Part shown: positions 37,662 through 42,286 of the stretch, piece after piece
Numbering within the stretch: position 1 is the first letter of the stretch
Layout: every line of letters begins with the position of its first letter
Notes under the pieces: generated by a model
The model's database searches: none
Seen by the model: only the letters and a program-made list of their open reading frames with translations
Told to the model about the DNA's origin: nothing
Assembly: GCF_003545715.1 (NCBI RefSeq)
Contig: NZ_QVNU01000007.1
Span: 1-64,000, forward strand
DNA from: Taibaiella koreensis
GTDB taxonomy: Bacteria > Bacteroidota > Bacteroidia > Chitinophagales > Chitinophagaceae
Reading direction: 5' to 3'
DNA length: 64,000 nucleotides
Made by a program: the position numbers and the translations under genes

Positions 37662-37753
37662 TGGCCGCTAACCGGTAGCCGGAATATAAAAAAAATCGCC
37701 GAACAACCACCCCAAGGCGCGACAGGGGAGGATCTTCAATCAAAATGCCTTTT

Positions 37754-38011
37754 ATGAAAAAGAAAGTAGTGAGCCTGAGCAAGCTTAGCCTGAACAAGGA
37801 AACGATCGGATCATTATCTGCCGATAAAGTTATCGGTGGCATTTCGGAGCTTGCCAGCTGTATCTGCACCGCAATACAAGAGCAGGCCAGCTGCGGGATT
37901 CCGTGTAGCAGAATTACCTGTGGCCGGGAGGCTACTCAATGTACACCCTGTCAGAGCGGCGGCTGTCCTTCGCTGGATACACACTGTGCCGGCTGCGGTA
38001 TCGGCGGGTGA
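37754..38011 (+). CDS. Class I lanthipeptide-like precursor peptide (copy 4)
   Basis: An 85-residue peptide from ATG 37754 (MKKKVVSLSKLSLNKETIGS); an ATG nine bases upstream (MPF) is an alternative. Leader ends in VIGGIS (about 25-30). The core is the most Cys-rich of the set, with ten Cys (SCICT, SCGIPCSRITC, QCTPC, GGCP, HCAGCGIGG). It ends in a hairpin at 38079-38109. Its neighbour is a T9SS cargo gene; no lanthionine synthetase or transporter is nearby. Confidence 0.78.
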   Translation: MKKKVVSLSKLSLNKETIGSLSADKVIGGISELASCICTAIQEQASCGIPCSRITCGREATQCTPCQSGGCPSLDTHCAGCGIGG

Positions 38012-39207: not shown

Positions 39208-39963
39208 TTGACTTTTCCTGTATATATCCATTTGGGCGGGGAGCAGGTGTTGCTGCATGCTGTTACTGAAGTGTTGAGCTTTTTTATCGCGTTCCGGTAT
39301 TATTTGTACCTGAAGCGGCGGCAGGGAGATGAGATAGGCAAGGAAAACCGCTTGTGGATTATATTGGGTGCAGCATCCGGCGCGCTGATCGGTTCACGGC
39401 TGTTAGGCGGTCTGGAAAATCCCCCCGGGCTCATGCACAGCGGACATCCCTGGCGCTACTTTTACGAGAACAAGACGGTGGTGGGTGGATTCCTGGGAGG
39501 ACTTTGGGGCGTGGAACTTGTAAAGCGGTGCATAGGCGAACGGCGCAGCAGTGGGGATCTGTTCACCTATCCTATGTTGCTGGGCCTTATCCTGGGACGT
39601 ATCGGCTGCTTCAGTATGGGTATTTATGAAGAAACCTATGGTCTGCCCACGTCCTGGATTACCGGTATGTATCTCGGTGACGGCTTGCTCCGGCATCCGG
39701 TGAGCCTTTACGAGATAGGTTTTCTGGTGCTGCTATGGATAAGCCTGGCACTGCTGGAAAAAAAATATGGTCTGGCCACCGGCGCACGATTCAAGCTTTT
39801 TATGATCAGCTATCTTTTGTTCCGGTTCCTGCTGGATTTTGTAAAGCCGCATTATACTTTCTTTTTTGGCCTTTCAAGCATTCAGCTGGCTTGCCTGGTT
39901 GGCTTGCTTTATTATTACCGTTATCTTTATCAGCCGAAGCGCCTGTTGAAAATTTATGCCTGA
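39208..39963 (+). CDS. Lgt-like (prolipoprotein diacylglyceryl transferase family) membrane protein
   Basis: A 251-residue polytopic protein with about seven membrane segments. GRIGCFSMG corresponds to the Lgt signature GRIGNFING, and RHPVSLYE to RHPTQLYE. Residues known to matter in E. coli Lgt appear changed: His103 (FHGG) is replaced in TVVGGFLGG, and Glu151 after NG is replaced in MGIYEE, so diacylglyceryl transfer to lipoproteins is doubtful. The start is a TTG at 39208; TATCTTTA at about 39174 may be the -7 element. Its end overlaps the radical SAM gene by 8 bases, so the two are probably co-translated. A paralogue with a different lipid substrate is the best guess. Confidence 0.75.
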   Translation: MTFPVYIHLGGEQVLLHAVTEVLSFFIAFRYYLYLKRRQGDEIGKENRLWIILGAASGALIGSRLLGGLENPPGLMHSGHPWRYFYENKTVVGGFLGGLWGVELVKRCIGERRSSGDLFTYPMLLGLILGRIGCFSMGIYEETYGLPTSWITGMYLGDGLLRHPVSLYEIGFLVLLWISLALLEKKYGLATGARFKLFMISYLLFRFLLDFVKPHYTFFFGLSSIQLACLVGLLYYYRYLYQPKRLLKIYA

Positions 39964-41362
39964 ACGCCCTTATACCTATTACGACTTTACACTGAGCATC
40001 TGCAGCACTTGCCTCCGCCGGGTGGATGCCAAAATTGTATTTGAAGACGGGCGGGTAATGATGCTGAAGCATTGTCCGCAGCACGGATTCGAAAAGGTGC
40101 TGATCGCTACAGATATTGCTTATTATAAAAATATCCGGAATTACAATAAGCCTTCGGAAACCCCTTTAAAATTCAATACCGAAACGCGGTATGGCTGTCC
40201 CTATGATTGTGGCCTGTGCCAGGATCATGAGCAACATAGTTGCCTCACCCTGGTCGAGATCACAGACCGCTGCAATCTGACCTGTCCTACCTGTTACGCC
40301 ATGAGCAGCCCGCACTACGGAAGACACCGTACCCTGGCCGAAGTGGAAAGTATGCTCGACCGCATCGTAGAAAATGAAGGTGAGCCCGACGTAGTGCAGA
40401 TCAGCGGGGGCGAGCCTACATTGCATCCCGATTTTTTTGAAATATTGGATAAGGCAAAAGCCCGGCCGATCAAGCATCTCATGGTTAATACCAATGGCAT
40501 CCGGATTGCCCGTGACTTTGCGTTTGCACAGCGGCTGGCAAGCTATATGCCCGACTTTGAGCTCTATCTTCAGTTCGATTCTTTCCGGCCGGATGCGCTC
40601 GAGAAACTGCGGGGTAAAGATCTTACCGATGTACGGAAAAAGGCGCTGGAGCATCTGAATGCACTTAACCTGTCGACGACGCTGGTGGTTACCGTACAAA
40701 TGGGTGTTAATGATGATGAACTCGGCGCGATCATCGACTTTGCGCTGCAGCAGCGATGTGTGCGTGGGGTAACGTTCCAGCCGGTGCAGGTAGCAGGTCG
40801 CAACGAGAACTTTGATCCTGCACTGCATCGCATTACCCTTACGGATGTACGGAGGAAGATACTGGAGCAGACTTCCGTGTTCCAACCCAATGACCTGATT
40901 CCTGTGCCTTGCAACCCGGACGCGCTGGCTATGGGCTATGCGCTCAAACTATCGGATCAGGTTTTCCCGTTGACGCGGTACATTGACCCGGCGCTGTTGC
41001 TGGACAACAGCCGCAATACGATCGTATACGAGCAGGACGAAGTCCTGAAAGAAAGGATGCTGGATATTTTCAGTACCGGCATTTCGGTCGACAGGGTAGA
41101 AGAAAACATGAAGCAGTTGCTTTGCTGCCTGCCGCAGGTTCAGGCCCCGGGCCTTACTTACGACAACCTGTTCCGTATCATAATCATGCGATTCATAGAT
41201 GCCTATGATTTCGATGTGAGGGCGATCAAGAAAAGTTGTGTGCACATCGTACACAAAGATGGCCGTATTATACCTTTTGAGACGATGAATCTGTTTTACC
41301 GGGACGATAAAGAGTATTATCTCAAGACCCTGCAGCAGGAGCGGCTCAGCCCTGTTCTGTAA
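39956..41362 (+). CDS. Radical SAM enzyme of the COG1964/Tes-like group
   Basis: A 468-residue radical SAM protein. The 4Fe-4S cluster motif is C-N-L-T-C-P-T-C (Cys106, 110, 113), followed by ISGGEPTLHP (149-158). Ahead of it are extra Cys sets: CSTC (16-19), HCPQHG (39-44) and GCPYDCGLC (80-88) then DHEQHSC. This layout is that of the COG1964 group, which includes archaeal MJ0619 and the tetraether lipid synthase Tes that couples lipid tails. The substrate here is unknown. It overlaps the upstream Lgt-like gene and is followed by a small membrane protein, so a membrane-lipid or lipoprotein substrate is plausible (inference). Confidence 0.8.
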   Translation: MPERPYTYYDFTLSICSTCLRRVDAKIVFEDGRVMMLKHCPQHGFEKVLIATDIAYYKNIRNYNKPSETPLKFNTETRYGCPYDCGLCQDHEQHSCLTLVEITDRCNLTCPTCYAMSSPHYGRHRTLAEVESMLDRIVENEGEPDVVQISGGEPTLHPDFFEILDKAKARPIKHLMVNTNGIRIARDFAFAQRLASYMPDFELYLQFDSFRPDALEKLRGKDLTDVRKKALEHLNALNLSTTLVVTVQMGVNDDELGAIIDFALQQRCVRGVTFQPVQVAGRNENFDPALHRITLTDVRRKILEQTSVFQPNDLIPVPCNPDALAMGYALKLSDQVFPLTRYIDPALLLDNSRNTIVYEQDEVLKERMLDIFSTGISVDRVEENMKQLLCCLPQVQAPGLTYDNLFRIIIMRFIDAYDFDVRAIKKSCVHIVHKDGRIIPFETMNLFYRDDKEYYLKTLQQERLSPVL

Positions 41363-41377
41363 ATCCTTATTTTAGCT

Positions 41378-41575
41378 ATGATCCTGCTCTCTTTGCTGCT
41401 CATATTGCTTTTTGCACCTTTTGTGCTGCTGCTGACGGGGTTCATCCTGGCGCTCATTCCGGAGTCAAGGAAGCGTGGTAAAATAATGCTGCTCACCGGC
41501 GGCATATGGCTGGTGGTTGAGCTGCTTATCGGATTCTCGATTTGCTCCAACATGCATTTCGGTGGCGGTCATTGA
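41378..41575 (+). CDS. Small two-pass membrane protein
   Basis: A 65-residue protein with two hydrophobic segments (about 2-26 and 37-55), a short basic loop between them (IPESRKRGK) and a His/Gly-rich end (SNMHFGGGH). It starts 15 bases after the radical SAM stop and is probably in the same operon. Family not recognised. Confidence 0.7.
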   Translation: MILLSLLLILLFAPFVLLLTGFILALIPESRKRGKIMLLTGGIWLVVELLIGFSICSNMHFGGGH

Positions 41576-41629: not shown

Positions 41630-42286
41630 ATGAATGCAATAATAACCGTAGAGGATCTATTGAACCTTATACTGGACTACAATTACTTATGGTGTTTGCC
41701 GGATAGAAGACATTCCCGGCCGGCGATGGCGAGGCAGGCACGGATCGGGGCCCTACAGGCAGCTTTCGGATTGACCAAAAAGCAGATCAATCCGGCGGTT
41801 CAGATCGTCTATTCCTTTGGAGGGGGTAAACAGGACAGGGCTGGTCGCCTGAGTCAGCTTTCTGATCTCCAGTATCTGCTGCACGGGGAATTCCTGCACG
41901 ATCGTGAGGAAAGCGCCAATGCGGCGCTCCATGCAAAAATCAAGGAAAAAATAACGGAACTGGAACCGGAGCTAATGGCCGATATCCGCGAAAAGCCGGC
42001 TGACATCGCCTGGCTGTTCAATCACTTGCTTCGCTTCAGGCAGGAGGTATTTAAATTAACCTATCCCAACGCGGGTATGCTGGAAGGTTTTTCGGCAGGC
42101 CTGCATTACAGCTATTACCTGCAACGCCAATTGAAAGAAGTTATCGCCGGCAACCTTTCTGAAATAGATGAAACACTCTGTCTCATTCTCGATCCCGCCA
42201 AACGGACATTCAGCCGGGAGGAGATCGGCTATCCTGATACCGACCTGGATCGGATCGACCTGGAATGGCGCATAGAAAGCGATTAG
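41630..42286 (+). CDS. Hypothetical cytoplasmic protein
   Basis: A 218-residue protein without signal peptide or membrane segment. Mostly helical, with a His/Arg-rich N-terminal loop (LPDRRHSRPAMARQARIG), FGLTKKQINPAVQIVYSFGGGKQ, DIAWLFNHLLRFRQEVFKL and an acidic end (YPDTDLDRIDLEWRIESD). No family recognised. It lies 54 bases after the small membrane protein and could belong to the same transcript. Confidence 0.7.
   Translation: MNAIITVEDLLNLILDYNYLWCLPDRRHSRPAMARQARIGALQAAFGLTKKQINPAVQIVYSFGGGKQDRAGRLSQLSDLQYLLHGEFLHDREESANAALHAKIKEKITELEPELMADIREKPADIAWLFNHLLRFRQEVFKLTYPNAGMLEGFSAGLHYSYYLQRQLKEVIAGNLSEIDETLCLILDPAKRTFSREEIGYPDTDLDRIDLEWRIESD

Follow-up and report, generated by a model that had tools for sequence, protein, structure and literature searches.

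A conserved cassette in Taibaiella koreensis joins an Lgt-like transferase, a Tes-related radical SAM enzyme and tiny membrane proteins, and may be a lipid-modification system

Lgt and Tes are among the described enzymes closest to the genes reported here. Lgt (structure 5azb, E. coli) acts on proteins that carry an N-terminal lipobox. Its active site is thought to face the periplasm (PMC4728403), and residues Y26, H103, R143, N146, G154 and R239 are reported to be absolutely required in the E. coli enzyme (PMC13251419). Tes (GDGT-MAS; MJ0619 of M. jannaschii, structure 7tol) is a radical S-adenosylmethionine (SAM) enzyme, and bacterial Tes homologues occur in organisms that are not known to make coupled chains, a matter on which further work has been called for (PMC9433317). 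The radical SAM (seleno)protein family TrsS (NF045646) appears as a table row, without a stated function, in PMC13188914. Other non-canonical forms of prokaryotic protein lipidation are the archaeal lipidation of lipoproteins of the AliA/AliB type and the C-terminal lipid anchoring of the archaeosortase type, which we compare by description only and for which the relevant parts of PMC12186497 mention no radical SAM partner. Here, we describe three adjoining genes of Taibaiella koreensis (phylum Bacteroidota) that encode an Lgt-like protein, a Tes-related radical SAM enzyme and a tiny membrane protein. They lie in a window of 64,000 nucleotides, by which we mean the whole stretch of DNA that was analysed (positions 1 to 64,000 of contig NZ_QVNU01000007.1), and their features are as follows:

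39208-39963, + strand: Lgt-like integral membrane transferase, 251 amino acids (aa), TTG start, Pfam LGT
39956-41362, + strand: Tes/TrsS-type radical SAM enzyme with an N-terminal rubredoxin-like domain, 468 aa, Pfam Radical_SAM and Zn_ribbon_HMPTM
41378-41575, + strand: two-pass membrane protein of 65 aa and proposed substrate, with Cys56 nine residues from the C-terminus, member of a multi-copy family

The two enzyme genes overlap by 8 bases and the small open reading frame (ORF) begins 15 bases further on, exactly as a preliminary description of this stretch had laid them out. That description also suggested that the block is conserved, which we found to be the case for the pair of enzyme genes. 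A profile scan of 84,980 species genomes gave at least 557 confirmed stretches, of which the best 80 make up our locus set; since the best-scoring ones were taken, these loci are close relatives of the window enzyme. Strains of Chitinophaga, Niabella and Mucilaginibacter are among the carriers of the cassette. An Lgt-like gene lies within the fetched stretch at 76 of the 80 radical SAM loci, and at 62 of these 76 the two enzyme genes overlap or are at most 50 nucleotides apart. Among the four loci that remain, one (L025) has a stretch that starts 309 bases before the enzyme gene, and the genomes of the three others (L031, L054 and L062) each carry an Lgt-like gene of the same kind elsewhere. 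The distances of the two enzymes correlate over the 76 loci (r 0.88), a value to which we give no weight because shared ancestry was not removed from it.

Co-occurrence was then counted in 198 genomes, an even draw across Bacteroidota limited to a completeness of 90% or more. At profile thresholds of 1e-60 for the radical SAM enzyme and 1e-30 for the Lgt-like protein, each had matches in 17 genomes and 16 genomes were common to both (Fisher's exact p 2e-21, which is an overstatement since the genomes share ancestry and are not independent). The enzyme genes are about 1.2 kilobases (kb) apart or less in 15 of these 16 genomes and on different contigs in the last (G111). The radical SAM match of the one genome without an Lgt-like gene (G142) passes the equivalog cut-off for Tes (493.8 of 450 bits) and is thus a different enzyme, a true Tes, while the one genome with the Lgt-like gene only is G033. 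A set of 59 relatives gave a similar picture: a radical SAM gene (E up to 1e-20) was present in six, the same six have an adjoining Lgt-like gene, and five more genomes had Lgt matches without a radical SAM gene, strong in G033 and weak in the other four. In the four unlinked cases that were checked (G078, G079, G080 and G111), the Lgt-like gene lies away from the radical SAM gene, and all three genes are present in each genome. In G003, a genome of the same genus, the site is empty: the upstream gene of 125 aa directly adjoins the downstream DUF4440 gene, and the stretch that is absent comprises the three cassette genes and a 218-aa ORF that follows them. The other two genomes of the genus likewise lack both enzymes. 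The linkage at 76 of 80 loci, the co-occurrence in the phylum and the empty site in G003 together rule out that these genes are chance neighbours. Altogether, linkage and co-occurrence, which persists even where the genes are unlinked, show that the three-gene block is a functional unit. Further conserved members of the cassette, looked for near Chitinophaga/Mucilaginibacter-type loci, were rejected, as the next neighbour families reach just 19 of the 80 loci.

The third member of this unit is our main new finding. The 65-aa ORF matches no Pfam or NCBIfam family and no named small-protein family; it has two hydropathy peaks with a basic loop before the last helix, and its third-position GC content (0.65) falls among the values of four neighbouring genes (0.58-0.68). 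It carries no N-terminal signal peptide with a lipobox, and its Cys56 lies past the second helix. One or more short hydrophobic ORFs are found 3' of the radical SAM gene at nearly every locus. A profile seeded with ORFs bearing the tail Cys motif detected at least one copy at 78 of the 80 loci, missing L062 and L083 (where 91 bases are left on the contig). At 73 loci the stretch continues for 1400 bases or more past the enzyme gene; of these, two had no copy, 35 had one, 29 had two, six had three and one had four. Members at L125, L126, L131, L132, L135 and L136, and some of those at L091, were identified by inspection and not by the profile. We aligned 97 members, taken from 125 listed references and seven others (alignment A4): mean column identity is 15%, and only the initial Met and one Cys are conserved at 90% or more, the Cys being present in 93 of the 97 rows. 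Counting back from this Cys in those 93 rows, position -4 is Gly or Ser in 90, position -3 is Phe or Leu in 71 and position -2 is Ser, Gly, Thr or Ala in 87. The tail that follows it is 3-16 residues long (median 7) and is not conserved apart from a terminal His in 22 of the 93 rows.

Because the profile had been seeded with the cysteine, the first small hydrophobic ORF after the enzyme was also tested without any Cys filter, and the strict motif was then found at 65 of the 73 loci, compared with 26 of 681 control ORFs from the same loci. The small genes are thus a fast-evolving family, usually present in one to four copies, with a near-invariant Cys just past the last helix. Membrane proteins tend to keep their positively charged loops on the cytoplasmic side (the positive-inside rule), and in 91 of 93 rows the loop that precedes the last helix has more Lys and Arg than the tail has, so that the conserved Cys is predicted to be periplasmic, on the side where Lgt works. 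A whole-genome search of 14 genomes with the profile found strong copies (E up to 3.8e-11) in eight. A copy is linked to neither enzyme in G079 and G111, and lies beside the radical SAM gene in G078 and G080. The same search returned nothing or weak matches (E 1.4e-4 and 0.0028) in the cassette-free genomes G001, G002 and G003 and in G033.

The Lgt-like protein belongs to the Lgt superfamily and forms a clade of its own within it. It exceeds the gathering cut-off of Pfam LGT (65.4 bits, cut-off 24.9), scores far below that of the NCBIfam lgt equivalog TIGR00544 (25.2 of 118.9 bits) and carries the GRIG and HPxxLYE marks that had been pointed out before, the latter as HPVSLYE. Its AlphaFold2 model (mean predicted local distance difference test score, pLDDT, 94.0) has E. 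coli Lgt as its sole Foldseek match at E up to 0.001, and superposes on 5azb with Z 13.2 and a root-mean-square deviation of 5.2 A over 242 aligned residues, the next row having Z 6.5. A tree was computed from 89 rows: 59 Lgt-like proteins, 27 canonical Bacteroidota Lgt proteins, E. coli Lgt and two deep rows. The canonical rows are a subset of the matches, with 30 loci at most fetched and L021 and L030 outside; the tree leaves out L114 (canonical), L117 (from the genome that L116 already represents) and L119 (an incomplete Lgt-like protein). The 59 Lgt-like proteins form one group (100/99) and the canonical proteins with that of E. coli form the other side (100/98). The two deep rows join the Lgt-like side. 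For this tree the program warns of long branches. A canonical lgt lies apart from the cassette in the source genome, on a different contig of the 5.94-Mb assembly (G000:C17:827593-828447). The preliminary description had expected this second gene; it is present and the gene pair is conserved, so that the refutation which that description named for its own proposal does not apply.

Compared with E. coli Lgt, the equivalents of R143 and R239 are kept in all 59 Lgt-like rows and in both deep rows, and those of E202, Y235, G142, G145 and G154 in 59 of 59; the position of E243 is Asp or Glu in 58 and that of R246 is Lys in 57, while G99 is mostly replaced by Asn. The loss of His103 that had been noticed before is real, since Val92 aligns there, and the loss of Glu151 is unclear, since Glu142 aligns with it. 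The argument drawn from these two residues is weak: Glu151 is absent from 18 of the 27 canonical Bacteroidota rows, and the source genome's own canonical lgt, which has Phe26, Tyr103, Cys146 and Gly151, lacks both. We therefore rejected the loss of His103 and Glu151 as proof of a non-Lgt reaction. Canonical lgt genes of this group (L001 1111-2391 and others) are also long, their products having about 390-480 aa in many genomes, and they differ from the E. coli gene by encoding Tyr at position 103 and Cys at position 146.

As had been proposed, the radical SAM enzyme is a Tes relative, judging from its sequence. Besides Pfam Radical_SAM (92.1 bits) and Zn_ribbon_HMPTM (67.8 bits), it matches M. 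jannaschii Tes (7tol) over the catalytic region and the C-terminal domain with 263.5 bits (E 3.3e-77), and no other solved relative has an E of 1e-10 or lower in the profile search. Among curated families TrsS scores highest, with 321.4 of 490 bits along most of the length, followed by Tes (NF045702, 284.9 of 450 bits), and both scores stay below the cut-offs; six relatives that were scanned also stay below the TrsS cut-off, at 317.8-345.9 and 368.6 bits. Of the fetched proteins, 50 were used for A5 and 37 for A6. The ligand motifs and Met439 of Tes are numbered as in PMC9433317. In all 37 rows, and matched to 7tol, the rubredoxin ligands C16-X2-C19-X20-C40-X2-H43, the [Fe4S4]N ligands C81/C85/C88 with His91 and the radical SAM motif C106-X3-C110-X2-C113 are kept, and Met411, the equivalent of the labile Met439 of Tes, is invariant. 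Tes Tyr459, which is conserved in archaeal homologues, corresponds to an invariant Ile431; the Tes mutants Y459F and Y459L remain active (PMC9433317). Four further cysteines (Cys96, Cys319, Cys390 and Cys391) are invariant in the 37 rows, and the true Tes of G142 lacks a Cys at each aligned position. The window enzyme thus probably binds its C-terminal cluster, the place at which Tes keeps its carbon intermediate, in another way. Its structure model is poor (mean pLDDT 60, residues 342-456 below 50), with 7tom as the best match (E 4.2e-19). Each of the two cassette enzymes is a new subgroup of a known superfamily. The G142 protein (L127 5864-7321), which stands without an Lgt-like gene, is a possible maker of coupled lipids.

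Gene order varies among the deep relatives. G197 and G232, which belong to other families of the phylum, have their genes arranged as radical SAM, ICMT-family methyltransferase, DUF4395, Lgt-like and small protein, and both small proteins, which the profile missed, show by eye a helix followed by a Gly-Ala-Cys or Gly-Ser-Cys tail. A selenocysteine in the radical SAM match of G232 is not claimed, since the in-frame TGA is apparently its stop codon. At the deep loci L124 (6883-7948) and L125 (4784-5858), the ICMT-family and DUF4395 genes lie between the two enzyme genes, and the ICMT-family genes score 59.2 and 49.9 bits with PF04140 (cut-off 24). This shares with ICMT-type CaaX processing the theme of C-terminal cysteine lipidation and differs from it in that no CaaX box or prenyltransferase was seen; the window cassette has no ICMT gene. 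The enzyme pair is also present in G209, G286 and G300, together with small proteins whose last residues are Gly-x-Cys.

We tentatively read the whole cassette as a system devoted to the lipid modification of tiny membrane proteins. The small proteins, one to four in number, would offer a Cys where their last membrane helix ends on the periplasmic side. Onto this Cys the Lgt-like enzyme would move a lipid, which would most likely be a diacylglyceryl group taken from an acidic phospholipid, and the Tes-like radical SAM enzyme, at the cytoplasmic side in the membrane, would abstract hydrogen from an inert carbon of the lipid chain. This last step would couple or otherwise alter the chain, either before transfer or on the finished lipoprotein. 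We propose lipidation at the Cys and radical chemistry on the lipid because the small genes behave like substrate genes in their copy number, their divergence and their one held residue; the lipidation also fits because the Cys is predicted on the right side and because both enzymes co-occur with the small genes in the sampled complete genomes except G033. The small proteins are probably the substrates, we lean towards their cysteine as the place where the lipid goes, and the radical SAM step could well, if less assuredly, act on the lipid chain. The preliminary description had seen in this block a pathway that alters a membrane lipid or a lipid-linked molecule: the conserved unit holds, whereas a free membrane lipid as the only target seems less likely, since the tiny protein belongs to a multi-copy family with a near-invariant C-terminal Cys, which points to a protein substrate.

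Several observations weigh against this proposal. Both the lipid that is used and the action of the radical SAM enzyme on it are parts of the chemistry that we infer from the sequences. Part of the Cys conservation in the 97-row alignment comes from the way the rows were chosen, as ORFs bearing the Cys motif had seeded the profile, and a lenient test that accepts any Cys 2-17 residues before the end gave 68 of 73 loci, compared with as many as 295 of 681 controls (43%). Four small copies lack the Cys, each of them beside a Cys-bearing copy. As to the transferase, Y26 is replaced by His in 57 of the 59 Lgt-like rows, H103 by Val, Met, Leu, Ile or Ala in 59 of 59 and N146 by Cys in 59 of 59, the window protein having His, Val and Cys at these positions. 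Three of the six residues essential in E. coli are thus changed, which would count weakly against plain Lgt activity, and a mycobacterial Lgt paralogue with Y26H and N146C is presumed to have low activity (PMC13251419). Since the canonical lgt of the source genome differs at the same three positions, such changes are weak evidence either way. Finally, G033 has an Lgt-like gene (L089 6653-7498) with neither partner found in its genome; this gene is possibly a relic.

The same genes could be explained differently if the small proteins were subunits, chaperones or lipid-presenting partners of enzymes that make a free unusual membrane lipid, with no protein being lipidated. The substrates of Tes itself are free membrane lipids, and its pocket has been modelled with phospholipids of E. 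coli (PMC9433317); moreover, at loci where the Lgt-like gene is unlinked or 1-4 kb off (L031, L054, L053, L066, L074 and L076), the small genes remain next to the gene of the radical SAM enzyme, as genes for a partner of that enzyme might. However, one to four copies and a fast divergence around a single held residue suit substrates better than subunits, and the small genes also keep company with the other enzyme: in L091, L131 and L132 they are placed between the genes of the two enzymes or ahead of the Lgt-like gene, and in L124 and L125 the Lgt-like gene shares its end with a small gene. We consider this explanation, the main rival of our reading, rather unlikely. The Lgt-like gene could also be an ordinary second lgt with a shifted lipobox specificity and an unrelated radical SAM neighbour, as its Pfam LGT score, its Lgt fold and the retained core arginines would allow, but its near-perfect co-occurrence with the radical SAM gene, unlinked cases included, its separate clade and its score far below the lgt equivalog cut-off make this most improbable.

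A third possibility is that the small protein itself is modified by the radical SAM enzyme, for instance by a thioether or a carbon-carbon crosslink, with the Lgt-like enzyme acting before or after, as in the maturation of ribosomally synthesized and post-translationally modified peptides (RiPPs). Tandem small genes beside a radical SAM gene do resemble RiPP precursors, and RiPP maturases are among the weaker fold matches of the radical SAM model (SkfB, 6efn, E 2.7e-5). Yet Tes is by far the nearest solved relative, both by fold and by profile; the small proteins are mostly membrane helix, with little in their short tails that is held constant; and the predicted position of their Cys lies across the membrane from a cytoplasmic enzyme. 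We therefore regard such a RiPP-like route as distinctly unlikely. Within the lipid-modification reading that we prefer, it is also unlikely, to a lesser degree, that the radical SAM enzyme links the chain ends of the small-protein lipid with a further lipid or with another small protein that is lipidated as well. If it did, the product would be a membrane-spanning or lipid-crosslinked lipopeptide, and the chemistries of Lgt and Tes would be brought together in one protein-modification pathway.

Whatever the exact reaction, the cassette supplies both a partner enzyme and a candidate substrate for one large bacterial group of Tes homologues, which makes the question of what they do directly testable. 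If lipidation is confirmed, Bacteroidota would have a second, dedicated route of protein lipidation, aimed at the C-terminal Cys of tiny membrane proteins, and the annotation of the Lgt-like genes as 'prolipoprotein diacylglyceryl transferase' would mislead. Searches of an open-licence PMC library found no account joining Lgt with a radical SAM enzyme in such a system; passages of PMC7641849 and PMC8939145 mention both, unrelated to each other.

One more ORF lies within the block that is absent from G003:

41630-42286, + strand: 218-aa ORF with no function assigned, sharing the insertion/deletion block with the cassette and not counted by us as a member of the system

It has no Pfam or NCBIfam match, is present in one of 10 genomes searched (the source genome alone) and has no relative at E below 0.1 among the fetched loci. 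It was ruled out as a cassette member since it is not conserved together with the cassette. Promoter-like sites are fewer in the window than in shuffled sequence, and terminator-like sites number 12 against a mean of 3.8 in the shuffles, with none interpretable between the cassette genes. Upstream of the cassette, an 88-aa ORF (37745-38011, + strand) has at its start a match to NF038153, a model for the leaders of class I lanthipeptides (32.2 bits, cut-off 22), and a homologue stands at the same place in G003.

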